Assembly: GCA_027311065.1 (NCBI GenBank)
Contig: DAICZP010000090.1
Location: forward strand, 1-59,151
DNA from: Thiomonas sp.
Lineage (GTDB): Bacteria; Pseudomonadota; Gammaproteobacteria; Burkholderiales; Burkholderiaceae_C
Direction: 5' to 3'
Length of the DNA: 59,151 nt
Position 1 is the first letter of the stretch; each line of letters starts with the position of its first letter. The notes under the pieces are model-generated. The model was not told where the DNA came from. It was given only the letters and a program-made list of their open reading frames with translations, and made no database searches. Positions 22,279 through 46,197 of this stretch are shown here, one piece after another. The position numbers and the translations under genes are program-made.

Positions 22279-22318
22279 ATGCGCGCGAATCGCACACCAA
22301 TGCGCGTTATTCGCGCAT
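22279..22318. promoter_or_regulatory. Tandem palindromic operator A (probable IclR sites) upstream of EamA permease
   Basis: Two 19-bp inverted-repeat units separated by 2 bp. The proximal unit at 22300-22318, ATGCGCGTTATTCGCGCAT, is a perfect 7-5-7 palindrome. The distal unit at 22279-22297, ATGCGCGCGAATCGCACAC, is imperfect. Centres are 21 bp apart. Three other promoters in the island carry the same 40-bp architecture (28995, 45207, 46158). Confidence 0.75.
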
Positions 22319-22334
22319 CTGCTGGACTGACGCG

Positions 22335-22364
22335 TTGAGCTAGATGAGGCACGCTTCGTAACAT
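22335..22364 (+). promoter_or_regulatory. Possible sigma-70 promoter for EamA permease
   Basis: TTGAGC (22335-22340), an 18-bp spacer and TAACAT (22359-22364). The -35-like box begins 16 bp after operator A, similar to the 17-bp gap at the promoters near 45189 and 46215. The boxes are weak matches, so the shared spacing is the main support. Confidence 0.35.
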
Positions 22365-22418
22365 CGGTGCATGCAGGCGAAGCGCCTGAATTCTTCGCAC
22401 CCGCCGCAAATCGCTCTC

Positions 22419-23387
22419 ATGGAATACGCAGCATCCGGCAACAGCAGATTCGCCGCGGTGTCCCACTGGGCACGCAGCGATCGTCGTCGAGGCGTGCTGA
22501 TGATGGTCGTCGTGACGGTGGGCTATGCGACGATCGCGGCGCTATCCAAGCTGCTGATGCAGCGCTGCCCGGTCGTGATGATCGCGTGGGCGCGGTACGC
22601 CACGCCTTTCGCGATGGGTGCCTCGGGGTTGTTTCGCACAGGTGAGTCGCCTCCTTGGCCTGTGCCTGACCTCGGCTGGCAGCTGCTGCGCAGCACACTG
22701 ATGATTGCTGGCACGCTGCTCATCATGCTCGCTTACAAGGTCTTGCCCCTGGCGCAGACACTGACGATCAGCGCAATCCATCCGTTGCTATTGACGGCTC
22801 TGGCTGCCTTGTTTCTTGGCGAACGCGTAACGGCCGGAATGTGGGCCAGTGCCGCACTTGGTTTCGTCGGTGTGCTCGTCATCGTGCGGCCGGGCAGCAA
22901 CATGTTCACGCCTGCCGCGCTGCTGCCGCTGGGAATGGCATGTACATATGCGGGATACATGGCACTAACGCGGCGACTCGCGAGGTGCCAGACCCCTGCT
23001 CGCTCACTCTTCTACGGCACCAGTGTTGGCACGCTATTGACCTCGTGCCTGCTCGTGCTCGACTGGGTCAAGCCTGATGTTCAGATGCTGAGCGCGCTGG
23101 CCCTGATCGGTGCGCTGTCGGCGGGCACCCACTGGCTGACGATAAAGGCCTTGAGAGCTGCGCCGGCATCGTTGCTTGCGCCAATCTCGTACGCGCAGTT
23201 GCTGTGGTCGGTCGCCTTCGGCGCGCTACTTTTCGGTGAAATTCCCGATGTCATCACGCTGACCGGAATGGGTGTGGTCGTGGCAGGCGGCCTCTTACTC
23301 AATGCGACGCAGCGACACGCAGCCCCTTGCGCTTCTTTTGCAAACGCAGCGCCGCATCGCGTGAGTTCGCCGCGCAACGACACCTGA
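22419..23387 (+). CDS. EamA-family (DMT) permease
   Basis: Ten-helix drug/metabolite transporter with two EamA repeats, about 322 residues from ATG 22419; an in-frame ATG at 22371 would add 16 residues but coincides with the predicted transcription start. Conserved blocks include ISAIHPLLLTALAALFLGE and LGFVGVLVIVRPG at the end of the first repeat, and LLAPISYAQLLWSVAFGALLFGE in the second. It is clearly paralogous to the permease at 43312-44265. Operator A upstream ties it to the IclR-controlled island. Import or export of a pathway acid is plausible but direction is unknown. Confidence 0.87.
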   Translation: MEYAASGNSRFAAVSHWARSDRRRGVLMMVVVTVGYATIAALSKLLMQRCPVVMIAWARYATPFAMGASGLFRTGESPPWPVPDLGWQLLRSTLMIAGTLLIMLAYKVLPLAQTLTISAIHPLLLTALAALFLGERVTAGMWASAALGFVGVLVIVRPGSNMFTPAALLPLGMACTYAGYMALTRRLARCQTPARSLFYGTSVGTLLTSCLLVLDWVKPDVQMLSALALIGALSAGTHWLTIKALRAAPASLLAPISYAQLLWSVAFGALLFGEIPDVITLTGMGVVVAGGLLLNATQRHAAPCASFANAAPHRVSSPRNDT

Positions 23388-23624
23388 CGCCATGGCACAA
23401 AAATCCAACGACTGCGGCTGCGACAAGATCTTGCCACTCGTGGTCATCGATGGCATGACTGCCCTGCCCCTCGGGCGAATCCCGCGCGCGCCGGTTGCCC
23501 CAGCCTGCGTGCCGCTTCACAAGCGCAACAGAAATGGATTGCATGAGGCGGTCATTGGGTTATGCACGCGGTTGGTCCGCGTATTGCTGCAGCCGTATGA
23601 AACGAACAGTGAAAGGACACGACA

Positions 23625-24458
23625 TTGATCAATGGTTCAACCCAGCTCATACCGCATATCGGTTATCCGACGGAAGCGTTCCGTGCACCCATGATCTACA
23701 ACCCATGGTTCGCGAGCAAACAGATCAACGCAATCGTGGTTCCAATGGGCGTGAAGCCGAAGGACTTCGCCTCGACACTGACCAGCATTTTTGCGATGAC
23801 CAATGTTCGAGGCGCCTTGATCACGATGCCTCACAAGGTTGAGGCAGCATCATTGGTGGACTCACTTTCGGTCACCGCAAGCATCGCTGGCGCCTGCAAT
23901 GCCATTGCCCGCAACCCTGACGGATCGTTGACGGGCGATCAGTTTGACGGCATTGGCTTTGTTCGCGGCCTGCGGCGCAAAGGCGTCGAGCTCACCGGCG
24001 CACGCGCTCTCGTCGCAGGCTGCGGCGGCGTTGGATCAGCCATTGCGGCATCGCTCGCCGCTGCTGGAGTCGACGAACTCCACCTCTTCGATCTGGATCA
24101 GCAAACCCGTGAGCACTTGTCACAGCGCTTGCGAACACACTACCCGCATCTGCGCGTCGTCGCAGGCTCAACGGATCCAGATGGCTTCGACCTGGTGTGT
24201 AACGCCACCCCTCTGGGCATGCACGACGAAGACCCGCTGCCATTTGATGTTTCAAGGCTCGCACCCTCCACATTTGTCGGCGAAGTGGTGATGAAACGTG
24301 AAATCACGCCACTACTTGCTGCCGCGCGCAGCCGTGGATGTCGCTACCAGATCGGCACCGACATGCTGTTCGAAATGATTCCCGCGTATCTGGAGTTCTT
24401 CGGCTTTCCTGAAGCGACACCAGAGGAGCTGCGCGCCGTCGCAACTCTGCAGTACTGA
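23625..24458 (+). CDS. Shikimate dehydrogenase-like protein lacking the SxS substrate motif (paralogue 1)
   Basis: 277-residue AroE-family NAD(P)-dependent dehydrogenase. The substrate domain keeps the catalytic Lys in ITMPHK and the Asp in GDQFDGIGF, and the nucleotide domain has GCGGVGSAIAASLA. Instead of the usual shikimate-binding S-x-S-P near the N-terminus it has FRAP (PTEAFRAPMIYN). The start is TTG 23625, supported by GAAAGGA about 7 bases upstream; no good ATG exists. It resembles paralogue 3 (46305-47183) much more than the canonical AroE at 33238. A strong terminator follows. Probably catabolic, on a shikimate- or quinate-like alcohol. Confidence 0.87.
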   Translation: MINGSTQLIPHIGYPTEAFRAPMIYNPWFASKQINAIVVPMGVKPKDFASTLTSIFAMTNVRGALITMPHKVEAASLVDSLSVTASIAGACNAIARNPDGSLTGDQFDGIGFVRGLRRKGVELTGARALVAGCGGVGSAIAASLAAAGVDELHLFDLDQQTREHLSQRLRTHYPHLRVVAGSTDPDGFDLVCNATPLGMHDEDPLPFDVSRLAPSTFVGEVVMKREITPLLAAARSRGCRYQIGTDMLFEMIPAYLEFFGFPEATPEELRAVATLQY

Positions 24459-24502
24459 AACCGGTCATCTCCAGGGCAGAGTGATGAGCTGCCACTTTGC
24501 AT

Positions 24503-24527
24503 GGCCCGATCGTCTCGGGCCTTTTTT
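24503..24527 (+). terminator. Rho-independent terminator
   Basis: Perfect 7-bp stem GGCCCGA / TCGGGCC with a 5-base loop (24503-24521) followed by six T residues (24522-24527). It ends transcription of the AroE-like gene at 23625-24458 and lies before the GlcG/HbpS gene. Confidence 0.85.
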
Positions 24528-24575
24528 CTCACCGGAAAAAGGCGCTATCGTCATGTCTTTTCAAGGGGATTCGGA

Positions 24576-24995
24576 ATGCCGACTATCGAGTATGGGCCAC
24601 CATTAAGCTTGGCCGACGCCAGGCGTATCGTCAATGCCGCGGAATTTGAGGCCGAAAAGCAGGGATGGGCGATGGTGATCGCGGTGTTCGACAGCACTGG
24701 CCATCTCGTCGTCCTGAACAAAATGGACCACGCCCAGTACGGCAGCATCGAGCTGGCGCAGGCAAAAGCACGGACGGCGACCCACTTCAAACGTGCGACA
24801 AAGCTCTTCGAAGACGCCATCGCCCAGGGTGGGTTGAGCTTGCGTCTACTCTCTGCTCCCGACTTCTGCCTGTTTGAGGGCGGTCTTCCACTATGGCGCG
24901 ACGACAAGCTCGTCGGCGCCATCGGAGTATCGGGCGCGAGCTCGAACGAGGACGGGATTATTGCTGCGGCGGGGGCCCGCGCCTTGCAAGGCTAA
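24576..24995 (+). CDS. GlcG/HbpS family protein (DUF336)
   Basis: 139-residue single-domain protein of the GlcG/HbpS family. Visible blocks are LADARRIVNAAEFEAEKQGW, MVIAVFDSTGHLVVLNKMDHA and the C-terminal GAIGVSGASSNEDG. ATG 24576 follows an AAGGGG site; the frame is open further upstream but that part overlaps the terminator. Members bind haem or lie in catabolic clusters without a known reaction. No signal peptide, so cytoplasmic. It is convergent with the LysR gene (gap 7 bases). Confidence 0.85.
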   Translation: MPTIEYGPPLSLADARRIVNAAEFEAEKQGWAMVIAVFDSTGHLVVLNKMDHAQYGSIELAQAKARTATHFKRATKLFEDAIAQGGLSLRLLSAPDFCLFEGGLPLWRDDKLVGAIGVSGASSNEDGIIAAAGARALQG

Positions 24996-25002
24996 TACAC
25001 GA

Positions 25003-25944
25003 TTATCCAAGCTGCCGTAGCGCAAATGCGCCGGATGCAAGCTGCTCACGCAGGAATTGCACGCAGACGCGAACCTTCGCTGATTGACTCGGACGCACCG
25101 TGCTCGCAGCCCAGAGCGACGTAGGTTGCGACCATTCCGGCAGGACTTGACGCAACCGCCCCGCGCGTATGTCGTCACTGATGTCCCATCCTGCCTGGAG
25201 CAAGATGCCATGCCCGTCTCCGGCCCAGCCGCGCACGATTTCGGAGTTGTTGGATGAGAGCCTCGCGGTGACCTTGACACTTCGCGCCTGATCTCCACGC
25301 ATCAGACGCCATACTCCGAACGCCTGATTGCGATCGCGCAGCACCAGACAGTCGTGCCGCGCGAGATCAGCGAGATCTTCCGGCGTCCCATGTGTGTCAA
25401 GATACGCAGGAGAGGCGCACAGTACACGGGGACTCTCCGCAAGTCGATAGGCGACCAGATGTGGTTCGTCCACTTCGCCGATACGCACATCGAGATCGAC
25501 GTTTTCGCTGAGCAGATCAACGCGACGATCAACCGCGTCCAGCGTGATCTCGAGGGCGGAGTGGCGCCGCGCCAGCAGCGACAGAATCGGTCCGATATGT
25601 GTGCGTCCCAGCCGGAAGCTTGTCGTCACGCGCAAAGGTCCTCGAGGCTCGGCGCGGCCGCCGGCGACAGCCTCCCCCATCTGGTCAACACCGTCGAGAA
25701 TGCGCTGCGCCGAAGCATAGACGTGCTCGCCTTCTTCGGTGACCGTGACTCGACGCGCGGAGCGATGGAACAACGCCACCCCTAACTCGCGCTCCAGTAT
25801 CGCAATGCGCTTGCTAACGTAGGCCGGAGACATGCCGAGCTCGGTCGCAGCGGCGGTGAAGCTCGCGTTACGTGCCGCGAGGCAGTACACACGCAAATCG
25901 GCGAGCTGGATTTTGAGCAACACGTTTCGTGAATTGAAAGTCAA
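25003..25944 (-). CDS. LysR-family transcriptional regulator
   Basis: LysR regulator of up to 313 residues. The N-terminal winged helix reads YCLAARNASFTAAATELGMS, and the substrate-binding domain follows. The frame begins with TTG at 25944; a GTG at 25923 is also possible, and neither has a clear ribosome site. It is divergent from the acyl-CoA dehydrogenase gene (26079) and so probably controls the acyl-CoA dehydrogenase / CoA-transferase pair and itself. It belongs to the CrgA-like subgroup by the PRGPLRVTTSFRLGR motif. Confidence 0.9.
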   Translation of the reverse strand: MTFNSRNVLLKIQLADLRVYCLAARNASFTAAATELGMSPAYVSKRIAILERELGVALFHRSARRVTVTEEGEHVYASAQRILDGVDQMGEAVAGGRAEPRGPLRVTTSFRLGRTHIGPILSLLARRHSALEITLDAVDRRVDLLSENVDLDVRIGEVDEPHLVAYRLAESPRVLCASPAYLDTHGTPEDLADLARHDCLVLRDRNQAFGVWRLMRGDQARSVKVTARLSSNNSEIVRGWAGDGHGILLQAGWDISDDIRAGRLRQVLPEWSQPTSLWAASTVRPSQSAKVRVCVQFLREQLASGAFALRQLG

Positions 25945-26078
25945 CGCACTGCGCGTTGTTCCCTATTCGAAGCAACCCTATATTAATCGACAAATTGCGA
26001 GGGATCGCGATCGCGCCACCATGATCCACCGTCGCGCGAACCGCGCTCCCACGTTCCCATCGCATGACCGGAGGTGCT

Positions 26079-27239: not shown

Positions 27240-27249
27240 GGGTTCAGCA

Positions 27250-28836
27250 ATGCGATCGAAGTTTGTCACACCAGAAGAAGCCGCCGCCATGATCGACGAC
27301 GGAGATACCGTTGCACTGATGGGCGGCGGCGGCGGTCTGATGGAAGCGACCTGCCTGTTCCAGGCCATCGAACACCGCTTCCTGCGCACTGCTCGTCCCC
27401 GCGATCTGAGCGTGGTCCATGCGCTCGGGATCGGCGACAAGCAGGCGCAGGGCATGAATTGCTTTGCGCACGAAGGACTGGTGCGCAAAGTTATCGGAGG
27501 TCATTGGGTCTGGTCACCACGCATGCAGCAATTGGCCCGGGATGAAAAAATCGCTGCCTATATTCTTCCAGGGGGCGTCTCATCGCAGCTGCTGCGCGAA
27601 ATTGGCGCAGGACGCCCAGGGCTTGTCACACATGTCGGCCTTGGCACTGTCTGCGACCCGCGCCAAGGGGGAGGACGCATGAATGCCTGCGCGAAGGAAG
27701 ATCTCGCCGAGTTGATGACCCTGGATGGCGATGTATACCTCCGCTACAAGCCTTACGTCGTCGACATCGCGCTTGTGCGGGGCTCGATCGCCGACGAGGA
27801 TGGCAACATCAGTTTTGACCATGAGGCTGCCGATCTGGATGCCCGCGCCATCGCGCTGGCAGCGCGCGCATGCCGCGGACGGGTGATCGTGCAGGTTCGT
27901 GCGCGCGTGCCACGCGGCGCCCTCGGCGCGCGCCAGGTCCGTATACCCGCAGCCTGGGTTGATGCCATCGTCGTAGACCCGGGTCAGCGCACCAGCTACG
28001 ACATCAAATTCGATCCTGAGTTGACAGGGGAACTAACCGGACCAGCCCGGCTAGCGGTGCCCCGGCGCTTGGCAGAACAAGTTGATGAGGCATTCAATGC
28101 GCGCCATGCGATTGCAAGACGGGCCGCGTGCGAACTGTTCGAAGATGCCGTCGTGAACTACGGCGTTGGTATTCCGGATGCCGTCGCCAGGCTCGTCGCG
28201 ATGCGTGGGGAACTCGATCGGATTTACCAAACAATCGAGCATGGCATCTACGGCGGCACCTTGCTCGATGGCTCTCTGTTCGGCTACGCGTGCAACCCCA
28301 GCGCTATCCTGGATGCGCCGACCCAGTTTGACTTTTATGCCGGTGGCGGACTCGACATCGCGATGCTCGGGTTCGGCGAGTTCGATGCCTATGGGAATGT
28401 CAATGTATCCAGGCTGGATGGACGAACTGTCGGGCCGGGAGGCTTCATCGACATCGCGCAGAATGCGCGCAAAGTCGTGTTTTGCGGCACCCTCGCCGCC
28501 AAGGGCGTCGAGCTTGTTACTGGTGACGGCAGCATGCGCATCACTCGGCAAGGCCAGGTTTGCAAGTTGGTCAAGAACGTCGAGCAGATCACTTTCAGCG
28601 GAGCCCAGGCCCAGCTGCGCGGCCAAGAAGTTTTGTATTTGACGGAACGCGCGAGTTTTCGCCTGACGCCAACCGGCGTCGAATTATTCGAGATTGCCCC
28701 GGGCATTGATCTGCAGCGCGATGTACTCTCCCAGATGGGATTCCATCCCCGGCTTGCAACGACGATTGATGTCATGCCAGCGTCGCATTTTCGCATTGAG
28801 GACGACGGCTGTGGCTCGCTGTCGCGTCGTGACTGA
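27250..28836 (+). CDS. Acetate/propionate-type CoA-transferase (YdiF family)
   Basis: 528-residue fused class I CoA-transferase with both alpha and beta halves. The N-terminal half starts FVTPEEAAAMIDDGDTVALMGGGGG. The C-terminal half has the catalytic Glu330 in TIEHGIYGG, then YAGGGLDIAMLGFGEFDAYGNVN. ATG 27250 follows the dehydrogenase stop by 10 bases. It moves CoA from a donor such as acetyl-CoA to a carboxylate, giving the substrate for the upstream acyl-CoA dehydrogenase. The physiological acid is unknown. Confidence 0.9.
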   Translation: MRSKFVTPEEAAAMIDDGDTVALMGGGGGLMEATCLFQAIEHRFLRTARPRDLSVVHALGIGDKQAQGMNCFAHEGLVRKVIGGHWVWSPRMQQLARDEKIAAYILPGGVSSQLLREIGAGRPGLVTHVGLGTVCDPRQGGGRMNACAKEDLAELMTLDGDVYLRYKPYVVDIALVRGSIADEDGNISFDHEAADLDARAIALAARACRGRVIVQVRARVPRGALGARQVRIPAAWVDAIVVDPGQRTSYDIKFDPELTGELTGPARLAVPRRLAEQVDEAFNARHAIARRAACELFEDAVVNYGVGIPDAVARLVAMRGELDRIYQTIEHGIYGGTLLDGSLFGYACNPSAILDAPTQFDFYAGGGLDIAMLGFGEFDAYGNVNVSRLDGRTVGPGGFIDIAQNARKVVFCGTLAAKGVELVTGDGSMRITRQGQVCKLVKNVEQITFSGAQAQLRGQEVLYLTERASFRLTPTGVELFEIAPGIDLQRDVLSQMGFHPRLATTIDVMPASHFRIEDDGCGSLSRRD

Positions 28837-28994
28837 GACGCCGGGACGGAGCGTGCTGACGCTGCCTGGTCCCGAGCCCTGTCTATCACTGCAGAATCGT
28901 TCCGAATTGAACGTGGGGCTGTGACAGCGTCCAGCCAGAGCCTCTTCGTGCACGGACTGCAACAGACATCGCCACACCGACATTCGCTCGACAT

Positions 28995-29034
28995 ACGCGC
29001 GAAATGCGCGCGCGATGGTGCGCTATTCGCCCGA
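28995..29034. promoter_or_regulatory. Tandem palindromic operator B upstream of FMN reductase
   Basis: Two 19-bp units with a 2-bp gap: ACGCGCGAAATGCGCGCGC (28995-29013) and TGGTGCGCTATTCGCCCGA (29016-29034). Both are imperfect, but their spacing (21 bp centre to centre) and core (GCG-N5-CGC) match operators A, C and D. It lies 114 bp before the FMN reductase start in a 311-base gene-free stretch (28837-29147). No convincing -35/-10 pair was found beside it. Confidence 0.5.
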
Positions 29035-29147
29035 TTCTTTCCAGGCGCGCGCCCGCGGCGCCGACAGCACCGTTACGCTGGCGGCGTGGGTTGGATGGGG
29101 ACGCTTTTCCGCCGCTCACGTCGTCACCACACAAAGAGGAGACACGC

Positions 29148-29729
29148 ATGGAGACCTTCAGCGTTGCCGTCATTGTTGGCAGCCTGCGACATGAATCCAG
29201 CAACCGCAGACTTGCCGATGCACTCGCTCGACTTGCCCCAGCAAACCTGCTTTTCGAGCAGATCGACATCGGTAACTTGCCACTGTTCAATCAGGACGCC
29301 GAGCGGACGGATTGCCCGCCTGTTTCCCACTTTCGCGCGGCGGTGCAGCATGCGCATGCTGTCGTGTTCGTTACTCCCGAATACAATCGGTCGATTCCGG
29401 GGCCGCTGAAAAATGCGATCGACCAAGGCTCTCGCCCTGCGGGACAGAGCATATGGGCCGGCAAGCCAGCAGGCATCCTGGGCATCAGTCCGGGACCTCT
29501 TGGCACGGCTCCTGCCCAGCAGCATCTGCGCAACGTGCTGGCGTGTCTCGACATGCAAACGATGGCGCAACCAGATGTCTACCTCCAATACAAGGAAGCC
29601 ATGTTCTCGATCGATGGCCAGATCGGAGACTCCGCGCGCCCACTGCTCGAACGCTGGATGGCAGGCTTTGCGCGCTGGGTTGCATGGCATTCCCATTCCC
29701 ATTCCGATTGCGTGCAGGCCGAACAATGA
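29148..29729 (+). CDS. NAD(P)H-dependent FMN reductase
   Basis: 193-residue flavodoxin-fold reductase. The FMN phosphate loop is GSLRHESSNRRLADAL and the second motif FVTPEYNRSIPGPLKNAID is characteristic of NADPH-dependent FMN/azo-/quinone reductases. ATG 29148 follows AGAGGAG. Its stop overlaps the next gene, a LysR regulator (ATGA). It may reduce flavin or a quinone arising from aromatic catabolism; that role is inferred from location and operator B only. Confidence 0.9.
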   Translation: METFSVAVIVGSLRHESSNRRLADALARLAPANLLFEQIDIGNLPLFNQDAERTDCPPVSHFRAAVQHAHAVVFVTPEYNRSIPGPLKNAIDQGSRPAGQSIWAGKPAGILGISPGPLGTAPAQQHLRNVLACLDMQTMAQPDVYLQYKEAMFSIDGQIGDSARPLLERWMAGFARWVAWHSHSHSDCVQAEQ

Positions 29730-30649
29730 AGCTGAACGCTTTGCAGGCACTCGTCGCCGCCATCGAGGATGGCAGCTTGCGAAGAGCCGGGAAACGCCTG
29801 GGCTATTCCCAGCCGGCACTGACCAAGATGATCAAAGACCTCGAACTTGAACTCACCGCACCCCTCCTGGTGCGAAACACCCGCGGAGTGGTTCCAACCA
29901 TTCAGGGAAAACTCTTGTTCGAGCACGCCCGTCGCGTCAAACAGGAGATTGACAACGCGACACAAAAAATCGCACGACTCGGCGGATCAATATGCTGCGA
30001 GGTGAATATCACCTCCGTCCCGGTTGCCCTCATGCTGCTGGTACCGGAGGCGATGCGAACATTCGCGCCAGAATTTCCCGAGGTGCATTTGCGTGTCAAC
30101 GAGGAACTATATCTTGAGCAACTGCAGCAACTGCGCTCGGGCGCCGTCGACATCGCCGTCGGCGGTGCTCCACCGAATCTTGCGCAGGGCGAATTTCATG
30201 TCGAGGAACTGATGTCGACGACGATGATTGTGGTCGCTGGAAAGGGCAGCAGGCACGCACGATCACGCAGCTTGCACGACCTCGCCAATGCCAAGTGGGT
30301 AGACATCAATACCGCCACGGACAGTGGCTACACAAAAGATTTCTTCAAACGCTGGGACATACCCGCCCCTCCGATCGGCGCAGTGGTGAATTCCACACTG
30401 GCGCTACTTGCGCTCATCGCGACCGGCGACTACGTGGGCTTGGTGCCTGAGCAAATCATGCACCATGCCTTGGCGAGCGGTCAGATTGAAAGCGTACCCA
30501 TCAAGGAAACCGGACTTCCAATTCGCATTGATGCCATCGTACGCGCGAGCAATCACGTCACCCCGGCGGTGCGCCACTTCATTGCGCAACTGCATCGCGC
30601 TGCAAAGCGTTACGGATACTGCCAACAACCTCGCGCATGGGCCGCCTGA
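29726..30649 (+). CDS. LysR-family transcriptional regulator
   Basis: 307-residue LysR regulator. The N-terminal winged helix is LQALVAAIEDGSLRRAGKRLGYSQPALTKMIK, and a full effector-binding domain follows. ATG 29726 overlaps the FMN reductase stop, so the two genes are coupled. No target promoter can be assigned from position; it is followed by a large hairpin. Confidence 0.92.
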   Translation: MKLNALQALVAAIEDGSLRRAGKRLGYSQPALTKMIKDLELELTAPLLVRNTRGVVPTIQGKLLFEHARRVKQEIDNATQKIARLGGSICCEVNITSVPVALMLLVPEAMRTFAPEFPEVHLRVNEELYLEQLQQLRSGAVDIAVGGAPPNLAQGEFHVEELMSTTMIVVAGKGSRHARSRSLHDLANAKWVDINTATDSGYTKDFFKRWDIPAPPIGAVVNSTLALLALIATGDYVGLVPEQIMHHALASGQIESVPIKETGLPIRIDAIVRASNHVTPAVRHFIAQLHRAAKRYGYCQQPRAWAA

Positions 30650-30708
30650 TGCCCATAAAATAATTCGCTGATCCGGATCAAGCCGTTCGGCTCATGCCTC
30701 GACGATTT

Positions 30709-30737: not shown

Positions 30738-30745
30738 GGCTTTGA

Positions 30746-31909: not shown

Positions 31910-31940
31910 GCGAATCTCCTCTTCCTATGAGTTGTCAATA

Positions 31941-33232: not shown

Positions 33233-33237
33233 CGCGT

Positions 33238-34074: not shown

Positions 34075-34086
34075 ATTCTCTCCAGG

Positions 34087-34929: not shown

Positions 34930-34939
34930 CGTGTACTCC

Positions 34940-36364: not shown

Positions 36365-36416
36365 TCTTGATTATCTCGCGGTCGATGAATCGTTCAATGT
36401 CGTGCGACGCTGCGCT

Positions 36417-37907: not shown

Positions 37908-37949
37908 ATCTATCCAGTGTGCAAAGCGTCCATCACCGGGCTGGACGCG

Positions 37950-38732
37950 TCAGGCTCTGTGCAGCGCACGCGTGAGCACGTCAACCACCAAGCGCAGATC
38001 ATCGATCGGCACCTGCCCCGGTGCGGAAGCCAGATCCCCCACCGCGAAGCTGACACTGGAGCCGAACATCCAGCCAAACATGCGCGTCAAGGCGCCATAT
38101 CCGCCCATAGACATCGTGATCAGTGGCAACTTCACAAGGCGCGAGCCCTGCAAGGTGGCGTTCAACAGGGTCAATACGTCCTCGAGGGTCTGCGGCATGA
38201 CCGCCACCTTCGCAAGGTCGGCGCCAAGGCTTTCAGCAGCACGAAATTTGCCCACGATGTCATCAGCCGCCGGGGTGCGCTGAAAATCATGAAACGACGC
38301 AATGAGCTGGACGTCGTGGCGGTGCGCAGCATCGAGCGTGCGGCGGAAGTCCGAAGGTGCGCAACTTAGCTCGCAGTCGATGAAATCAATGAAGCCGCTG
38401 GCGCATGCTGCCTCCTGCAATGCAACGACTTGCTGTTCGTCGATGCCAATCGACTCCCCGCCCTCGCGGATCGAGCGTCGGGTAAAAATCACCGGAATCG
38501 TCCCCGCAGCAGCACGCACATCGGCGGCGCTGGACAGAACCTGTGAGATATCCCCAATGCCTGCAAAAAAATCGATTCGCCATTCGATCAGGTCAGGCTT
38601 CTTCGCCACCACCTTCGCGGCTTCGATGCGCAGCGTCTGTGCATCCCGGGCAACCAGAGGGGAACAGATCAACGGCTCCTTGCCCTGACCAACAACGCGT
38701 CCTCGCTGGACAATAGTTTGGCTCATGTTCAT
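37950..38732 (-). CDS. aroD: Type I 3-dehydroquinate dehydratase
   Basis: 260-residue class I dehydroquinase (Schiff-base aldolase fold), converting 3-dehydroquinate to 3-dehydroshikimate. Active-site features are EWRIDFF (Glu50, Arg52), TRRSIREGG, Glu121 in DFIDCELS, His148 in ASFHDFQRTP and the Schiff-base Lys175 in DLAKVAVMP, ending with SAPGQVPIDDLR. ATG 38732 follows AGGAG. Betaproteobacteria normally use the unrelated type II enzyme AroQ for biosynthesis, so this copy, in a catabolic operon, is probably for quinate or a related acid. Confidence 0.93.
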   Translation of the reverse strand: MNMSQTIVQRGRVVGQGKEPLICSPLVARDAQTLRIEAAKVVAKKPDLIEWRIDFFAGIGDISQVLSSAADVRAAAGTIPVIFTRRSIREGGESIGIDEQQVVALQEAACASGFIDFIDCELSCAPSDFRRTLDAAHRHDVQLIASFHDFQRTPAADDIVGKFRAAESLGADLAKVAVMPQTLEDVLTLLNATLQGSRLVKLPLITMSMGGYGALTRMFGWMFGSSVSFAVGDLASAPGQVPIDDLRLVVDVLTRALHRA

Positions 38733-38857
38733 TTTGTCATGCTCCTTTCTGTGGTGGAATCGATGGAACGAATCCTTGAATTTTCCACCGGCCTCGGGAC
38801 GCGCGTATGTCGACACCGCGCGCCCCAAGGCCGCCGGGCACCAGCCCGGCCCCGGGA

Positions 38858-40228
38858 TCAGAAGCGATACAAAGCTCCGATCTGAATACCCTCAACCTTT
38901 TGTCCTTTCACCGTCGCCGCAGGGAAATTCTTGTAAGGTGCGCCCGCCGAACCGACAAATCCGAAGCTCGCATTGGCGTTGTTATCCATGGCGTCGCCAA
39001 ACGCATAGAAAGTGACATTCTTGAAGGCGTCGTAGTACGCGCCCACGTTGTAGCCCGATGCGTTATTGCTCGAATTCGCGCTGTCGCGGATCAGTCCATA
39101 CAGCGCGCCAATGCGAAGCTTGGGGCTAACGCGGTAATCAGCTGAAATCTGATAGATGTTGTAGTAATCGCTCGGCGTTGTGACTGCCAGCTGCGAATTG
39201 CTGCCGATGACAGGTCCGCCGACGTTGTTCAGTGCGCCGTTGCCATTGTTGGAACGCACGTAGTTTGCGTAAATCGTGCCACGACCATAGTCGTAATTGG
39301 CATAGAAATCACTGTAGGTGACGTTGCCCTTGCCGACCGTGCTGCGCCCATCGATGCCAGCGTAGCCCAGGCGCCACGGACCGTTCAGATAGTCAGCTCC
39401 GAGCTGCATGATGCTGCCGTAGGTGATGCTAGCTGTCGGGCTCTGGTTCGACGAACCAACCGCGTAGTGCGCCTGGACCTGCAAGCCGTCGATGCGTGGT
39501 GCGATATAGGCGATGTCACCGTCAAAGCGTGATGGCACGCCGAAACTGTTGACAACCGAGCCCATGGTACGCGCCGTGTAATCGACGAAGCCGCCAGCAT
39601 AGAAAATTGCCGTGTTTTGGCGACCGATACGGAACTCACCGTGCGGGGTACTCAGGCCAGCCCAAGCCTGACGGTCGAACAGACGCCCGTTGCTGGTGGT
39701 GTTGGACGTCCCGCTGTAGCTCGGGGTGTCGGTGTTATTGCCATTCTCAAAGTTCAAACTTTGCTCAATCTGCGCCTCGGCTTTATAGCCCGCGCCCATA
39801 TCGCGCACGAACAGCATTCCCAGGCGACTCTTCAGAATTGCACCATCATTGAGCGCCTGGATCGTCTGCCCATTCGCGTGCATGTAGTTGAAGTACTGGT
39901 CGACGTCACCATAAAGCGTGAACGCGTTATCGCCGAGCTTGAGTGACATCACGTTTTGCACAGGCGTCAGCGAGGCTCCGGCATTGCGACCCAATGGCGC
40001 TGGCGCGGGCGCCGCGGTCACCACGATGGCGTTCGCGGGCAATACCGATGCGGTCGTAGATGCTGCAGCCGTATGCGCCTGTTGCATCTTCAACTGTTGA
40101 ACTTCCGCCTGCAGTTGCTGCACGGCAGCCTTCAGATCACCGATTTCGTCGGCGTGTGCTGCCGGGAACGCTGCAACGAGAATGCCGGCTGAAAGCAGCG
40201 CGGCGGTGAGAGATGTAAATCTTTTCAT
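38858..40228 (-). CDS. Outer-membrane porin with coiled-coil N-terminus
   Basis: 456-residue outer-membrane protein. The signal peptide (LTAALLSAGILVAAFPAAHA) is followed by a short coiled coil (IGDLKAAVQQLQAEVQQLKM) and a beta-barrel starting LKLGDNAFTLYGDVDQYF, ending IQIGALYRF with a terminal Phe. The gene is embedded in the catabolic operon between the TPP enzyme and aroD, so it is probably a dedicated channel for the pathway substrate. It belongs to the Burkholderiales general porin/DcaP-like group by layout. Confidence 0.87.
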   Translation of the reverse strand: MKRFTSLTAALLSAGILVAAFPAAHADEIGDLKAAVQQLQAEVQQLKMQQAHTAAASTTASVLPANAIVVTAAPAPAPLGRNAGASLTPVQNVMSLKLGDNAFTLYGDVDQYFNYMHANGQTIQALNDGAILKSRLGMLFVRDMGAGYKAEAQIEQSLNFENGNNTDTPSYSGTSNTTSNGRLFDRQAWAGLSTPHGEFRIGRQNTAIFYAGGFVDYTARTMGSVVNSFGVPSRFDGDIAYIAPRIDGLQVQAHYAVGSSNQSPTASITYGSIMQLGADYLNGPWRLGYAGIDGRSTVGKGNVTYSDFYANYDYGRGTIYANYVRSNNGNGALNNVGGPVIGSNSQLAVTTPSDYYNIYQISADYRVSPKLRIGALYGLIRDSANSSNNASGYNVGAYYDAFKNVTFYAFGDAMDNNANASFGFVGSAGAPYKNFPAATVKGQKVEGIQIGALYRF

Positions 40229-40287
40229 TTGACTCCTCCTTCTTGGTGTGTGTGCCGTAAACGGCGATGAAAATAACAGCGGTTGAA

Positions 40288-42051
40288 TCAATCGGTGCTC
40301 ACATGCGACACCCCGCCCTGCGGCGAATAGATGTCGAGAATGTTCCAGTGGCCCGAGGTCGGAACGGGGTTGTTACGCATTGCCACATCAATGACAAACG
40401 GCTGATTTGAGGCAACGGCGCGTTCGAGAATTTCCTTGAACGCAGCGGCCGACTCAACCCTCTCTCCTTGCGCACCGTAAGCACGCGCGACGGCCGCAAA
40501 GTCAGCCTGGTAGGGCTTGCCGTCCTTCAAAAACAGCGTGCCCAGCGTGGTGCCGAAATGCGCCTTTTGGAGGCCGGCAATCGTGCCGAACGCAAAGTTG
40601 TTCATGACAACCCAAACAACGGGGATGTTCTCTTCCACCGCAGTCGCGAGCAGCGCCGGATTTTGCCCGAACCCTCCGTCCCCGACGAGCGAGACAACCA
40701 CTCGGTTTGGGTACGCAAGTTTGGCGCCCATCGCCGCCGGCGCGCCGAACCCCATCGTCGCGTAACCGCCCGGGGTCAGGATCGAGCCCGGCTCGTAAAC
40801 GGGAAACTGCTGACCGACGCCGTTCTTGTTCCAACCGACGTCGGTCGTGATGATGGCGTCGCGCGGCAGGACTTCGCGCACCACCGAAAGAATGCGCTCC
40901 GGCATCATCGGAAAGCCTTCATCCTCGACAAATTTGCGGTTGCCGGCAACGAAGGCCTCACGGTAATCAGCGACCTGTTTGCGCAAGGCATCATTGCGCC
41001 GACCGTCCGGCAGCATTTCGCGCGCCACCCGGTTCAGTACCGACAGCGCCTGGCGCAAATCGGCGACGACCCCGATCTCGGCCGGATAGTTGCGCCCGAT
41101 CTCGCTCGGATCGACGTCAATGTGAATGAGCTTGCTGTTCCCCGGAATATCGAAGGTGTAGGCGCTCTCCCACGAGCTGCAGTCGGCTTCGCAAAATCGC
41201 GTTCCCAGGCCGAGAATCCAATCGGCACCGCGACAGCGCTCATTGACAAACTCGGTTCCCCAAAAGCCCGTCATGCCCAAGGTCAGATCATGATCGTCAG
41301 GAAGAACGCCCTTACCCATCAACGAATGCGCCACCGGCAGGCTCAAATGGTCGACCAACTGGCGGAGTTCGTCGGCTGCATCCGCAAGAATCACACCGCC
41401 ACCGGCGTAGATCAGTGGGTTGCGCGCGTCGAGAAGTGCCTGCACGATCCGCCGCGCGGTCGGATCGTCGATCGACGGCTTGGCCAGTTTGCGCGTGTGT
41501 CTGCTGACCCGAGCGAATAGCGCTTCGTCGATTTCTACCGAGAACAGATCCATAGGCACCGACACCAGCACCGGCCCGGGCCGGCCGCTCTCAGCCAATT
41601 GGAATGCCTTTTCGATGATCTCGGGGAAGAGCTCGGCGCGATCGACACGCCATGCTCGCTTGACGAAAGGCCGGTAAATCTCCCACTGCGCCGCATCAGC
41701 ATGCATATTCACTTCCTGGTGAGGATGCTTGCCGAAGTAGTAGCTGGGGATATCACCCGCAATCACAACCATGGGAATCGAATCAAGTGCTGCATTGGCG
41801 ACACCCGTTGCGGCATTCGTCAGACCAGGACCTAAGTGGCTGAGAACAACGGCGGTCTCATGCTTTACGCGGGCATAGCCATCAGCCGCATGTGCGGCGA
41901 TCTGCTCATGCCGAGTGTTGATGAAGCGGATCGGACTGCTCTCGAGGGCGGTCAGGACGGCGATGTTGGTATGCCCGCAAAGGCCGAATATATGGCTGAC
42001 GCCGCGCGCCTCGAGATAGCGAACGAGCTGGTGCGAAATAAGTTGTTTCAT
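40288..42051 (-). CDS. Thiamine diphosphate-dependent enzyme (acetolactate synthase-like)
   Basis: 587-residue TPP enzyme with PYR, central and PP domains. The catalytic Glu49 lies in NTRHEQIAAHAADGYA. The Mg/TPP motif starts GDGGFGQ at 457 and ends with Asn-Asn at 484-485 (VWVVMNNFAFG). Homology points to the COG0028 group (acetolactate synthase, 2-oxo acid decarboxylase, Xsc-like). It would decarboxylate or transfer a 2-oxo acid to give an aldehyde for the two downstream aldehyde dehydrogenases. ATG 42051 (MKQLISHQ) is chosen; extra upstream codons overlap the intergenic gap. Confidence 0.88.
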   Translation of the reverse strand: MKQLISHQLVRYLEARGVSHIFGLCGHTNIAVLTALESSPIRFINTRHEQIAAHAADGYARVKHETAVVLSHLGPGLTNAATGVANAALDSIPMVVIAGDIPSYYFGKHPHQEVNMHADAAQWEIYRPFVKRAWRVDRAELFPEIIEKAFQLAESGRPGPVLVSVPMDLFSVEIDEALFARVSRHTRKLAKPSIDDPTARRIVQALLDARNPLIYAGGGVILADAADELRQLVDHLSLPVAHSLMGKGVLPDDHDLTLGMTGFWGTEFVNERCRGADWILGLGTRFCEADCSSWESAYTFDIPGNSKLIHIDVDPSEIGRNYPAEIGVVADLRQALSVLNRVAREMLPDGRRNDALRKQVADYREAFVAGNRKFVEDEGFPMMPERILSVVREVLPRDAIITTDVGWNKNGVGQQFPVYEPGSILTPGGYATMGFGAPAAMGAKLAYPNRVVVSLVGDGGFGQNPALLATAVEENIPVVWVVMNNFAFGTIAGLQKAHFGTTLGTLFLKDGKPYQADFAAVARAYGAQGERVESAAAFKEILERAVASNQPFVIDVAMRNNPVPTSGHWNILDIYSPQGGVSHVSTD

Positions 42052-42109
42052 TATGGTCTCCCGATAGGGCCGGCTCCCCTGGGGTCCGGCGTAAGTTGTC
42101 GACGATTGC

Positions 42110-43315
42110 TCAGATGATGGCTTGCTCTCGCAGCGCGGAAATGTCTCCGGCCGCATAGCCAAGCGACTGGAGAATCTCTTCGCTGTGCTGGCCGAGGCGC
42201 GGTGGCGCCAGCGAGACATCTGGATCTCCGCTGCTCATCTTGAAGCCTGCGCGGACAACATCGAAGGCGCGCCCGCTACCGTTATCTGCATCAAAATGCG
42301 CCAACAACCTGCGATGTCTGATCTGTGGGTGCGCCAGAGCCTCCGGCACTGTGAGCACGCGCCCGGCCGGCACCCCGTGCGCCGACAGGATTTGCTCCCA
42401 TTCATTGGCATCCCGCGCGCCCAGCCCAAGCTCGATCTCGTGCTTGAGTGCGACCCGGTTGCGCTTGCGCGCTTCGCGCTCCGCAAAGCGGGGGTCAGCG
42501 GCGAGTTCGGGGCGCCCGATCAGTGCAACCAGGTCCACGAACTGTTCCTGCTTGTTCGCTGCGATGTTCAACAGGCCTTCGGCGGTGGCGAATGTTCCCG
42601 ACGGCGCTGCCGTAAAGTTCTCGTTCCCCATCGGTTGGGGTTCCCGACCCGCAATAAGATAGTTCGAAACAGCCCAACCCATCGTCACCAGCGTTGCGTC
42701 GAGCATTGATACGTCGATGAATTGGCCGCGGCCATCGCGCGGTCGGCCCACCAGTGCGCTGGTGATCGCGAATGCGGCCGTCATGCCACCAAGGGTGTCG
42801 CAAATAGGGTAGCCGACGCGCAGCGGAGCACTTTCAGCGTCACCCGTGATGCTCATCACTCCGGACAGCCCTTGCACGATCTGGTCGTAGGCGGGCGCGG
42901 TCTTCATCGGTCCGTCCTGGCCGAACCCCGAAATTGCACAGTACACCAGTGCCGGATTGCGCGCGCTCAGCGTGGCGTAATCCAGCCCGAGCCGCTCCAT
43001 CACTCCTGGCCTGAAGTTTTCAATCAGCACATCGGCGGTCTCGACCAAACGCAACAGTACGTCCCGACCTGCGGCCGCTTTCAGATCGAGCGCGATCGAC
43101 CTTTTGCCAGCATTTTGTGCGATGAAAGATGCGCCCATACCCTGCGCATTCAGTTGCGCATCGGCGCCGAGTTGACGTGCCAGATCGCCGCGACGCGGCT
43201 CTTCGACCTTGATCACGTCGGCGCCAAGAAGCGCCAACTGGTACGCACAAAAAGGGCCTGCAAGCACATTGGTCAGGTCGAGCACGCGGATGCAGGACAA
43301 GGCTTTCTGAGTCAA
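42110..43315 (-). CDS. CaiB/BaiF family CoA-transferase
   Basis: 401-residue class III CoA-transferase. The N-terminus VLDLTNVLAGPFCAYQLALLGADVIKVEEP is the family signature, and the catalytic Asp is in PAYDQIVQGLSG. The start is TTG 43315, overlapping the stop of the upstream permease gene as TTGA, which explains the lack of an ATG. It would transfer CoA from a thioester such as succinyl-CoA to the pathway acid, feeding the citryl-CoA-lyase-like enzyme downstream. Donor and acceptor unknown. Confidence 0.9.
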   Translation of the reverse strand: MTQKALSCIRVLDLTNVLAGPFCAYQLALLGADVIKVEEPRRGDLARQLGADAQLNAQGMGASFIAQNAGKRSIALDLKAAAGRDVLLRLVETADVLIENFRPGVMERLGLDYATLSARNPALVYCAISGFGQDGPMKTAPAYDQIVQGLSGVMSITGDAESAPLRVGYPICDTLGGMTAAFAITSALVGRPRDGRGQFIDVSMLDATLVTMGWAVSNYLIAGREPQPMGNENFTAAPSGTFATAEGLLNIAANKQEQFVDLVALIGRPELAADPRFAEREARKRNRVALKHEIELGLGARDANEWEQILSAHGVPAGRVLTVPEALAHPQIRHRRLLAHFDADNGSGRAFDVVRAGFKMSSGDPDVSLAPPRLGQHSEEILQSLGYAAGDISALREQAII

Positions 43316-44265
43316 CGGATCACCCCAGTAATGGACGCCGTGCTCGGCGCCGCGCGGCGCGCCAAGGTGGCCAGCAGCCCCCCGGCGACGATCAGTGCGA
43401 TACCCAGCAAGGTCAGACCTGCTGGAAAATTTCCGAAAAACAGCACACCAAGCATGATGACCCAAAGCACCTGCACATATGCCACCGGAGCGAGCTTCGA
43501 TGCGGGGGAGGAGCCGAGCGCGCGAATCATCAAGAAATGCCCGCCGCCTGAACACAAGCCTGCGCATACGAACAAGGCGGCATCGCGCGACCCCGGCATC
43601 TTGTCCACGAACAGCAGCGAAACCCCGGTGACCACGGTGCCGACCAGCATCACGTAGAACAAGGAATTGATCGCCGCATCACGCGCAGTGACATGACGCG
43701 TCAAAGCCTGATACCCCGCGTAGCACAGCGCCATCGCCAACGGAAGCAATGCCGGCGACGTGTCGAAGCCACCACCCGGGCGCACGATCACAATCACTCC
43801 ACCAAATCCGAGCGCAATCGCCACCCAACTGAGCGGATGTACCTTTTCATGGAGAAACAGCACCGCGAGCAACATGAGTAGCAAGGGGTGCACAAAACTG
43901 ATTGACTGCGCCTCCGCGATCGGCATCAAGCGCATGGCGAGCACGATGGTCAGTGTGCATATGACGAGGAGCACACCGCGGAGCAGTTGCACAGCGGGAT
44001 GACGCGTGCGGAACAAACCAAAGCCGTATTGCGGACCATACACAATGCAGACGAAAAGCAAAGGCACCGCATAGCGAGCGAACGCGACCTGGTTGACCGG
44101 ATAATCGCGTGCCAAATATTTCGACAGCGTGTCGGCAAATGCAAACATGAGGGTCGCGCCCACCCCCAGCATCGCGCCGAGCTGCACGTGGTGGCGCCGG
44201 TCAACGGCGCTCACGAGGACGCCCCGCTGACGCTGCAGCGGATACGCGAAGCCAGCATGCGGCAT
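43312..44265 (-). CDS. EamA-family (DMT) permease
   Basis: 317-residue ten-helix transporter, paralogous to the permease at 22419-23387: compare ISFVHPLLLMLLAVLFLHE and LGFGGVIVIVRPGGG with its counterparts. ATG 44265 is 7 bases after the TIM-barrel gene stop; the stop overlaps the CaiB-family start by 4 bases. Second gene of the leftward operon. Direction and solute unknown. Confidence 0.88.
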   Translation of the reverse strand: MPHAGFAYPLQRQRGVLVSAVDRRHHVQLGAMLGVGATLMFAFADTLSKYLARDYPVNQVAFARYAVPLLFVCIVYGPQYGFGLFRTRHPAVQLLRGVLLVICTLTIVLAMRLMPIAEAQSISFVHPLLLMLLAVLFLHEKVHPLSWVAIALGFGGVIVIVRPGGGFDTSPALLPLAMALCYAGYQALTRHVTARDAAINSLFYVMLVGTVVTGVSLLFVDKMPGSRDAALFVCAGLCSGGGHFLMIRALGSSPASKLAPVAYVQVLWVIMLGVLFFGNFPAGLTLLGIALIVAGGLLATLARRAAPSTASITGVIR

Positions 44266-44272
44266 CGCTGTT

Positions 44273-45106
44273 TCACGCCCTCGCCTCGATCGTCGCCGCG
44301 TGCTTCGCCACGTAAGCCTTGGCCGACTCAAGACAGCGGAACGCGTGTTCGGCATACCCGAACTCCCTCGCGCGCTGCAAGTGCGGCAACTCGATCGAAT
44401 AGACCGAAACCGGCAGATGGTGGAGGATGGAAGCGATATCAATGCCACCCTCGCCAACGTACAGTCGCTCCTCACGCAAGATCCGCGTCATTTCAGCGCG
44501 ATCCTCCGGGATTTTCGCCTGCGCGTCGCACAAATGCGCGAAGTGGAACCACTCTCGCGGCAAAGCATCAAGGTCTTCGGGGCGATCGAGTGCGCGATTA
44601 AAATGATGCATGTCCACCATCAAACCCGCGTTCGGCCGTTGCGCGGCGCGCAGCACCGCAGCAGCTGACGCCAGCGTATTCACGCTTGAAATCGGCACGT
44701 ACTCCAGATCGACCGTAAGCCCAAAGGGCGCAGCGAGATCACAGATCTGTGCAAATTTTTCAATTGCGTAAGGGATATGCTGCGTCCAGATACTCGCCAA
44801 TACGGCCTTGGCGCCGAGTTCCGCGGCGACTTCCATCGCCGGCAGATACTTGGTCGCGTGCATGTCGTCGTGAACCCGCGCCAGCTCGATATCGTGCACC
44901 TGCAGCCCTGTCTCGACGAGCGCACGTCGCGTCTTGCGCAACAGCACGGCGTCATCGGCCAGCGCATAGTTGGGCTCACCGGGCAGTCCCATGTAGATCA
45001 CGCGCGGGCTGACATAGTCGTAACCAGCGCGCGCCGCGACGTAAATCATTTCCGGAGTCGGACAGCCGAGTACGGTCAAATGCGCTAAGGAATATCGAAT
45101 CGTCAT
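44273..45106 (-). CDS. Xylose isomerase-like TIM barrel protein (dehydroshikimate dehydratase/isomerase family)
   Basis: 277-residue AP-endonuclease-2-fold TIM barrel. The metal-site pattern appears intact: Glu in VDLEYVPIS, Asp in MVDMHHFNRA, His in FHFAHLCDAQ and Glu in SIELPHLQ. The family includes sugar isomerases, 3-dehydroshikimate dehydratases (AsbF, QsuB N-terminal domain) and hydroxypyruvate isomerases. First gene of the leftward operon; promoter and operator C lie just upstream. ATG 45106 (MTIRYSLAHL) matches the family N-terminus. Conversion of dehydroshikimate to protocatechuate is one option. Confidence 0.83.
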   Translation of the reverse strand: MTIRYSLAHLTVLGCPTPEMIYVAARAGYDYVSPRVIYMGLPGEPNYALADDAVLLRKTRRALVETGLQVHDIELARVHDDMHATKYLPAMEVAAELGAKAVLASIWTQHIPYAIEKFAQICDLAAPFGLTVDLEYVPISSVNTLASAAAVLRAAQRPNAGLMVDMHHFNRALDRPEDLDALPREWFHFAHLCDAQAKIPEDRAEMTRILREERLYVGEGGIDIASILHHLPVSVYSIELPHLQRAREFGYAEHAFRCLESAKAYVAKHAATIEARA

Positions 45107-45160
45107 GGGTAGGTCGCCGGAGCAAACACTTGTCGATCTCAATGCGGGATCAATGTGTTG

Positions 45161-45189
45161 ATGCTAGAAATCGACCACTGAACCAACAA
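45161..45189 (-). promoter_or_regulatory. Possible sigma-70 promoter of the leftward catabolic operon
   Basis: Minus strand: TTGTTG (45184-45189), 17-bp spacer, TAGCAT (45161-45166), about 55 bases before the first start codon. The -35-like box starts 17 bp from operator C, the same geometry as at 46215, which suggests activation from an upstream site. Confidence 0.38.
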
Positions 45190-45206
45190 TGCAGCCAGAC
45201 AGGTTA

Positions 45207-45246
45207 CTGCGCGCTATTCGCGCAGAATGCACCGCATAGCGCGCAC
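45207..45246. promoter_or_regulatory. Tandem palindromic operator C of the leftward operon
   Basis: CTGCGCGCTATTCGCGCAG (45207-45225) is a perfect 7-5-7 palindrome. After 2 bp the imperfect unit TGCACCGCATAGCGCGCAC (45228-45246) follows. Centres are 21 bp apart. It lies between the IclR gene end and the first operon gene, on the promoter side of the eleven-gene operon. Confidence 0.78.
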
Positions 45247-45368
45247 TTTGCCGATTCAAGGTCGAGCCTCGGGAACCAGGGAAGGTTGGCCGGACGTGCG
45301 TGCCAGAGGTGCGAGTGCGCGTCGCGCTCAGCGAGATGGCGCCCGGCCAAGGGTTTTTCGGCGTACCG

Positions 45369-46139
45369 TCAGAGCAATGACAACAGAGAGTGTTCGGCCT
45401 GCCGCAAGAGGGGCAGCACGCGCGCCACGGCGGCTTTTGGGGACTCGCTGCCAATCGGCAAACTCACGCTGAGCGCACCCACCACCTGGCCGCTGCGCGA
45501 CTGCACTGGCACCGCGATGCCGCGACGATCGCGTTCCATCTGTTGCTCAAGAATCACAAAACCGTCCTGGCGCGCGCGGTTGATGACGGCGCACACTTCG
45601 TCAGGCCGCGTCAAGGTCATCGGCGTGTAGGCGACAAACTTCTGACGCGACAGCCAAGCATCGACTTCGACCGGCGACATGCACGACAACAGCGCGATGC
45701 CCGCTGACGCCAGACTGGCCGGGACGCGGGCGCCGAGCATGAAGCTCAACGTCTGGAAACTGCTCGAGACATTGCGGGCGATGAAAACGAGATCTCCTTC
45801 GTCAAGCACGCCGAATGACACCGTCACCCCACCGAGTTCACGGCTAATCTGCTGCAGAAATGGCTGGACGGTACGAGGCAGGCGCGCGGAATCGAAATAC
45901 GACCATCCGAGCCGAAGAACTCTCGGCGTAAGCCAGAACATCGTGCCGTCGCTCTCGAGGTAACCCAGCTCGCGCAGGGTCAACAGGTAGCGACGCGCAG
46001 CGGTCCGACTCAGACCCGTGCGCCGGGCCGCCGTCGATGCACTCAACCGTGAGTGCGCATCTGCGAACGCCTCGATCACGCGCAAACCCTTTTCGATACC
46101 TGCGATCCAGTCGCGCCTGGCGCCTTCGCGCTCATCCAT
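45369..46139 (-). CDS. IclR-family regulator, PcaR/PobR-like
   Basis: 256-residue IclR regulator. The N-terminal winged helix has GIEKGLRVIEAF and LSRTAARRYLLTLRELGYL with the following FWLTPRVLRLGWSYF, a pattern typical of the PcaR/PobR/PcaU branch controlling protocatechuate and hydroxybenzoate genes. The effector domain (GAF-like) follows. It is divergent from the AroE-like gene at 46305, with operator D between them, and lies directly upstream of the leftward operon. It is the best candidate for binding all four tandem operators. Effector unknown; aromatic or shikimate-type acids are likely. Confidence 0.92.
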   Translation of the reverse strand: MDEREGARRDWIAGIEKGLRVIEAFADAHSRLSASTAARRTGLSRTAARRYLLTLRELGYLESDGTMFWLTPRVLRLGWSYFDSARLPRTVQPFLQQISRELGGVTVSFGVLDEGDLVFIARNVSSSFQTLSFMLGARVPASLASAGIALLSCMSPVEVDAWLSRQKFVAYTPMTLTRPDEVCAVINRARQDGFVILEQQMERDRRGIAVPVQSRSGQVVGALSVSLPIGSESPKAAVARVLPLLRQAEHSLLSLL

Positions 46140-46157
46140 GTCAGCCTCCGAGCCAAA

Positions 46158-46197
46158 ATGCGCGATTAGCGCACACCTATGATCGATTTTCGCGCGC
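46158..46197. promoter_or_regulatory. Tandem palindromic operator D between IclR and the AroE-like gene
   Basis: ATGCGCGATTAGCGCACAC (46158-46176) and ATGATCGATTTTCGCGCGC (46179-46197), 2 bp apart and 21 bp centre to centre. The first half-site is shared exactly with operator A (ATGCGCG...CGCACAC in the distal unit of A). Position between divergent genes fits autoregulation of IclR together with control of the rightward unit. Confidence 0.72.

Follow-up and report, generated by a model that had tools for sequence, protein, structure and literature searches.

Tandem binding sites of IclR-family regulators, with centers 18 to 22 nucleotides (nt) apart, have been predicted for 94 orthologous groups and are explained by tetramers whose dimers lie on one face of the DNA (PMC8222616, Suvorova and Gelfand 2021). 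The same survey describes a recurrent IclR gene set composed of quinate/shikimate and 4-hydroxyphenylpyruvate metabolism and aromatic transport. PcaU is described as both activating and repressing at two facing promoters, its own and the opposite one (PMC4213383). In a 59,151-nt stretch of DNA from Thiomonas sp. (contig DAICZP010000090.1; the whole stretch is called the window here), four 40-bp blocks, one at each of four promoters (P1 to P4), are predicted to be tandem operators of a PobR/PcaU-like IclR protein encoded in the same window. The blocks share with the surveyed systems the paired sites, the gene theme, and a spacing of 21 nt, which falls within the range of 18 to 22 nt, whereas their half-site, TGCGCG/CGCGCA, differs from the group 1 half-sites of that survey. 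The architecture, the class of the binder, and the gene theme are already known from PMC8222616; the regulon, the half-site, and the fixed distance between block and -10 element appear to be new, as far as the main text of the survey allows this to be judged. Site positions in the Results of PMC8222616 are counted from the start codon, and no constant spacing between site and -10 element was found in that text. A search of titles and abstract openings, with most subscription journals outside its reach, found no published description of this regulon.

The system resembles PobR of Acinetobacter baylyi in its DNA-reading residues and PcaU in the layout of its own and a facing promoter, and a palindrome with an extra half-site, as found at P2, is a further likeness to both regulators. 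It differs from the A. baylyi PcaU and PobR systems in its targets, which are quinate/shikimate-type, transport, and coenzyme A (CoA)-enzyme genes, and in not reaching the cut-off of the NCBI model TIGR02431. The published motif of TphR of Comamonas sp. E6, TTTTTGCGCATAGCGCAAAAA (PMC8222616, Table 1), shares the TGCGC...GCGCA arms, but TphR is a terephthalate regulator and its arm spacing is shorter. TtgV is an IclR-family protein that has been solved on DNA (2XRO) and is cited for tetramer binding (PMC8222616), but it is an efflux regulator and is distant in sequence (phmmer, 5.7e-06).

The blocks lie at 46158 to 46197 on the forward strand (P1, between iclR and the AroE-like/liv operon), at 45207 to 45246 on the reverse strand (P2, before a leftward eleven-gene operon), at 22279 to 22318 on the forward strand (P3, before EamA1/AroEa), and at 28995 to 29034 on the forward strand (P4, before a flavin mononucleotide [FMN] reductase gene and LysR2). 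All four sets of coordinates given in the preliminary description proved exact, as did the two perfect palindromes that it quoted. Its picture of two 19-bp palindromes per block, each with 7-bp arms around a 5-bp center, holds for two units and for the 21-nt distance between site centers, which recurs in all four blocks, but strict palindromy was overstated. Only two of the eight units are perfect, and the others pair at 2 to 6 of 7 arm positions when complementary positions are counted: 5 and 7 in the 22279 block, 6 and 5 in the 28995 block, 7 and 2 in the 45207 block, and 5 and 3 in the 46158 block. The units at 45228 and 46179 are hardly symmetric. At P2, the promoter-proximal unit is perfect and the distal unit is mainly a half-site, GTGCGCG being the half best kept in relatives. 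When all tandem positions of the window with 21-nt spacing were ranked by symmetry alone, the 22279 block took rank 2 (ties counted) and the 28995 block rank 5, while the 45207 and 46158 blocks came 263rd and 1,047th. Symmetry was dropped as the sole test, as two of the four blocks do not stand out in this ranking.

By sequence, all four blocks do stand out. A symmetric matrix was built, with the window excluded, from 18 distinct units of 15 blocks of relatives (loci L001 to L009); the training set is without the upstream block of L004, whose contig ends there, and without the downstream block of L005. With this matrix, the four blocks hold ranks 1 to 4 among all window positions with 21-nt tandem spacing, scoring 35.8 (P1), 30.6 (P3), 29.8 (P4), and 29.0 (P2); the training set contains orthologues of the P1 and P2 blocks and nothing that corresponds to those of P3 and P4. 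The fifth-ranked position scores 15.4, which leaves a gap of 13.6 bits below the four blocks. A scan of spacings from 15 to 45 peaks at 21, and pairs at other spacings score at most 25.3. A lone, fairly good unit (13.6) is also present at 27592 to 27610 within a CoA-transferase open reading frame (ORF), and the best-scoring pairs include no tandem partner for it.

Each block stands at a nearly constant distance from a -10-like element of the form TANNNT on the side of its target genes. This element is TACGAT at P1 (46238 to 46243, forward strand), TAGCAT at P2 (45161 to 45166, reverse strand), and TAACAT at P3 (22359 to 22364, forward strand), each 40 bp past the end of the block, and TACGCT at P4 (29074 to 29079, forward strand), 39 bp past it. 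With the offset free to vary between 15 and 75, four of four TANNNT elements within one base of each other turned up neither in 20,000 first-order Markov sets nor in 20,000 random window sets, and no random set of either kind had even three TANNNT elements at the same offset. Among the promoters of relatives examined, TANNNT is found at 39 or 40 in 22 of 22 (7 for P1, 8 for P2, 5 for P3, and 2 for P4): at offset 40, TAGGAT or TACGAT in all 7 for P1 and TAGCAT in all 8 for P2, the -10 element at 39 or 40 in all 5 for P3, and the same offset as in the window in both for P4. The -35 regions look poor at P1, P3, and P4, and only P2 has a fair one (TTGTTG, 17 bp, TAGCAT). On the iclR side, the promoter runs on the reverse strand from 46186 to 46214 (TTGCAA, 17 bp, GAAAAT), with its -10 element at 46186 to 46191, inside the P1 block. 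In all nine sequences examined, this side has TTG-N3 and, after 17 bp, a -10 element of the AAAAT or ATAAT type that lies inside the block. Blocks upstream of P1 to P4 at a fixed distance from the -10 element, combined with an iclR -10 element inside a block, give the layout expected of a regulator that activates outward and represses its own gene. Through the fixed distance, which was absent from the preliminary description, the idea of a shared operator becomes a prediction of activation.

The predicted binder, from Pfam matches and residue comparison, is a PobR/PcaU-like IclR-family regulator of 256 amino acids (45369 to 46139, reverse strand). It matches the Pfam domains IclR_C (9.1e-24; 84.4 bits, cut-off 24) and HTH_IclR (1.4e-14; 54 bits, cut-off 22). 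All nine DNA-reading residues of PobR, as listed in Table 5 of PMC8222616, are identical and equally spaced: A24, G25, K28, S55, R56, T57, A58, R60, and R61. In the same survey, Arg at positions 28 and 32 of the helix-turn-helix (HTH) domain is tied to motif G/C, in line with the GC-rich half-site here. Three other HTH_IclR matches are present in the own genome, and none has a tblastn match to the window IclR protein better than E 0.31. The proposal of this protein as the binder, made in the preliminary description, gains support from the block at the iclR promoter, the conservation of the blocks, the PobR residues, and co-occurrence, and the protein is the probable binder on these sequence grounds.

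The own genome is represented by a 2.76-Mb assembly of 143 contigs that is 92% complete. A composite tandem pattern derived from the four blocks themselves fits only those four places without a mismatch and two more at one mismatch; at up to two mismatches there are 29 matches on both strands, versus 26 for a reversed control. When 20 loci of the other pattern places were scored with the matrix, the best tandem reached 16.8 (L047) and the other 19 at most 15. Random scatter of matches over the genome, which the preliminary description had named as evidence against a regulon, was not found for the tandem, exact composite fits being confined to the four blocks. The 17-bp palindrome occurs without mismatch only at 22301 and 45208. 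With up to two mismatches, the single palindrome gives 251 forward and 235 reverse matches, versus 161 and 158 in the reversed control, and a genome scan for it was dropped as a detector because such copies are common and the scan is not specific. Specificity comes from the tandem arrangement and not from the single palindrome.

A search of genome contigs for iclR homologues returned 30 loci. These include eight Thiomonas/betaproteobacterial records at 81 to 87% identity, one metagenome-assembled genome at 59% (L009), and records of Cupriavidus, Ralstonia, Delftia, and related genera at 50 to 55%. Inspection of the flanks of 14 of the 30 loci showed similar blocks before iclR and, in near relatives, before the adjacent triosephosphate isomerase (TIM)-barrel gene. 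The 50 to 55% identical Cupriavidus IclR proteins likewise have related units just ahead of them; these units are of a different kind, partly in three-unit series, and score lower (about 16 to 28). In L019 (7926 to 7986) and other Cupriavidus loci, three motif-like units precede iclR at 21-bp steps, a longer series than in the window. L019 also carries a weak block (16.6) between AroEa and an HPPD-like gene.

Nine further stretches of relatives around pattern matches (L109 to L117) were searched with 32 window proteins. Same-genus genomes have blocks at each of the four promoter types, and in several of these genomes the blocks are on different contigs. They stand before EamA1/AroEa in L109 (23.4) and L110 (25.8), before AroEa in L113 (26.0), L114 (26.0), and L115 (24.7), and before the FMN reductase gene in L109 (31.4). 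In L111, a block (26.2) precedes a LysR2 homologue with no FMN reductase detected, and L111, L112, L116, and L117 have blocks at iclR and the TIM-barrel operon. Among 21 genomes, seven have an IclR protein at 83 to 100% identity and six more have only weaker homologues of at most 45%. Matrix scoring of 56 pattern places in these genomes gave 18 that reach 23.6, a cut chosen after the list was seen, and 17 of the 18 are in genomes with a close IclR protein, several of the 17 being training blocks and one (G001, contig 95) having surroundings outside the comparison. The eighteenth is the EamA block of G006. G004 has a close IclR protein and no strong pattern match; in its assembly, 63 bases separate the start of iclR from the end of a contig.

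The blocks, their spacing, the fixed distance to the -10 element, the conservation, and the specificity within the assembled genome come directly from computation; from them we infer binding, a tetramer, activation, self-repression, and an inducer. It is very probable that the blocks are the operators of the PobR-like IclR protein, paired dimers of which would activate P1 to P4 and repress iclR. The two dimers would be neighbors on the same face of the DNA, their site centers separated by 21 bp, and at P1 to P4 they would sit just upstream of the promoter, with the proximal center at about -62 and the distal center at about -83 if the -10 hexamer is taken as -12 to -7. With inducer, which may be a quinate-, shikimate-, or dehydroshikimate/protocatechuate-like acid, the bound pair would activate genes for quinate/shikimate-type uptake and catabolism, and because the iclR -10 element falls within the P1 block, the same complex would repress iclR. 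The same protein could instead use the same operators to repress all four operons and be released by the inducer. The IclR family includes repressors, activators, and dual regulators (PMC8222616), the iclR -10 element inside a block would suit repression, and so would the fair -35 element of P2. However, the blocks at P1 to P4 end 39 to 40 bp before the -10 element and leave the core promoter free, and a repressor needs no fixed distance, so we regard general repression as unlikely.

A different regulator might also bind the blocks, most plausibly one of the two LysR-type proteins of the window (LysR1, 25003 to 25944; LysR2, 29312 to 30649). LysR2 is itself downstream of a block, and a LysR1 homologue (54 to 56% identity) lies beside iclR in Cupriavidus (L010 and L019). 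Against such a binder, the iclR neighborhoods of L111, L112, and L117 have flanking blocks, and a search at E 1e-15 found no LysR1 homologue there. The motif is also similar to those of the IclR family, and the reading residues of the IclR protein match those of PobR. We regard a different binder as very improbable. That the blocks are GC-rich palindromes arising by chance or serving another role, such as repetitive extragenic palindrome-like elements or RNA structure, deserves almost no credence: single palindromes with up to two mismatches are indeed common in the own genome, about half above the reversed control, but the tandem arrangement, the matrix scores, the promoter positions, and the conservation at four promoters speak against it.

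Several observations weigh against activation from these blocks by the IclR protein. Most units are not full palindromes, and compared with GTNCG-N5-6-CGNAC, the consensus of tandem-site IclR operators, the half-sites are mostly GCGCG and not the family GTNCG, with 3 of 16 exact, 12 at one mismatch, and 1 at two. The protein scores 246.4 bits against its closest NCBI model, TIGR02431 (PcaR/PcaU/PobR), under the cut-off of 284.75. The zero counts among the random sets refer to a motif and an offset that were spotted by eye before testing, and the null varies the offset and not the motif. The 22 promoters of relatives come from related genomes and are therefore not 22 independent events, and their count leaves out L009 and the Cupriavidus loci. 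The P4 -10 element is weak and lies at 39, and the fair -35 element at P2 means that dependence on an activator is not obvious there. As the composite pattern was built from the four blocks, their exact fit follows by construction, and the sole result of that scan is the absence of others. The place before AroEa in L007/L111 scores just 18.1 and has one good unit. G006 (82% complete) has an EamA (P3) block and no close IclR protein in its assembly. Pattern matches in G008 (22.5) and G014 (22.4), also without a close IclR protein, both outscore the EamA (P3) block of G003 (21.2), so the separation between genomes with and without a close IclR protein is not clean.

The genes behind the blocks form four groups. 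The P1 targets (46305 to 52483, forward strand) are predicted to be an AroE-like gene (AroEc), livH, livM, livG, livF, and genes for an HPPD-like and a TIM-barrel protein (TIM2). The P2 operon (32390 to 45142, reverse strand) comprises, according to family scans, a TIM-barrel protein, an EamA transporter, a CaiB-type CoA-transferase, a thiamine diphosphate (ThDP) enzyme, a porin, type I AroD, an aldehyde dehydrogenase, an acylating aldehyde dehydrogenase-like protein, a citryl-CoA lyase, AroE, and an amidohydrolase. The citryl-CoA lyase match is clear (435.6 bits versus a cut-off of 261). The pathway served by this leftward operon is not obvious, since AroD and AroE are found there together with the CaiB CoA-transferase, the ThDP enzyme, the acylating aldehyde dehydrogenase-like protein, and the citryl-CoA lyase. 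The P3 targets (22371 to 24995, forward strand) are an EamA transporter, an AroE-like protein, and an HbpS-like protein; for EamA, a start at 22419 is likelier than one at 22371, which falls 7 bp past the P3 -10 element. The P4 targets (29148 to 30649, forward strand) are the FMN reductase followed by the LysR-type regulator, and the FMN reductase ATG at 29148 is preceded by GAGGAG, the listed ORF start at 29004 falling inside the P4 block. No single fused protein reaches the cut-off of 1,200 for QuiC (NF042435); of two neighboring ORFs, each matches a different part of this profile: 51620 to 52483 covers positions 7 to 268 (115.1 bits) and 50760 to 51623 covers positions 281 to 486 (84.8 bits). 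QuiC seems to be split in swapped order at 50760 to 52483, with the HPPD-like half first and the TIM-barrel half second.

The best guess from the gene content is that these groups serve quinate/shikimate-type uptake and catabolism, several of the target enzymes matching general models only, below their cut-offs. The AroE, AroD, QuiC-like, transport, and CoA-enzyme genes could lead to protocatechuate. Family scans of selected window ORFs called no pca or pob gene among the genes behind the four blocks. No intradiol dioxygenase (PF00775) was found in 13 genomes of the genus (G000 to G012), the own genome and 12 others, several of which are incomplete. LigA (PF07746) is present in 8 of these 13 genomes and was not found in G000, G001, G003, G008, and G012, several again incomplete. 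Among the seven genomes with a close IclR protein, three (G000, G001, and G003; 92, 95, and 86% complete) showed neither intradiol dioxygenase nor LigA, and the other four (G002, G004, G007, and G009) have LigA. Classical protocatechuate cleavage, the obvious end for such a pathway, was looked for in the own genome, which has no PF00775 match and whose sole LigB-family protein is 4,5-DOPA-dioxygenase-like (161.4, below the model cut-off of 233). It is conceivable, if rather doubtful, that the quinate/shikimate-like breakdown under this regulon ends otherwise than in ring cleavage of protocatechuate by either of the two dioxygenase classes searched for and instead proceeds via the CoA-transferase, a ThDP lyase, the acylating aldehyde dehydrogenase, and a citryl-CoA-lyase-type enzyme.

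With the four blocks, four neighboring gene groups that had been read separately become one testable regulon, and the unusual eleven-gene operon, with its shikimate-type and CoA-type enzymes, gains a functional frame. The rule of a block, 40 bp, and a -10 element could serve in the search for more targets of PobR-like IclR activators.

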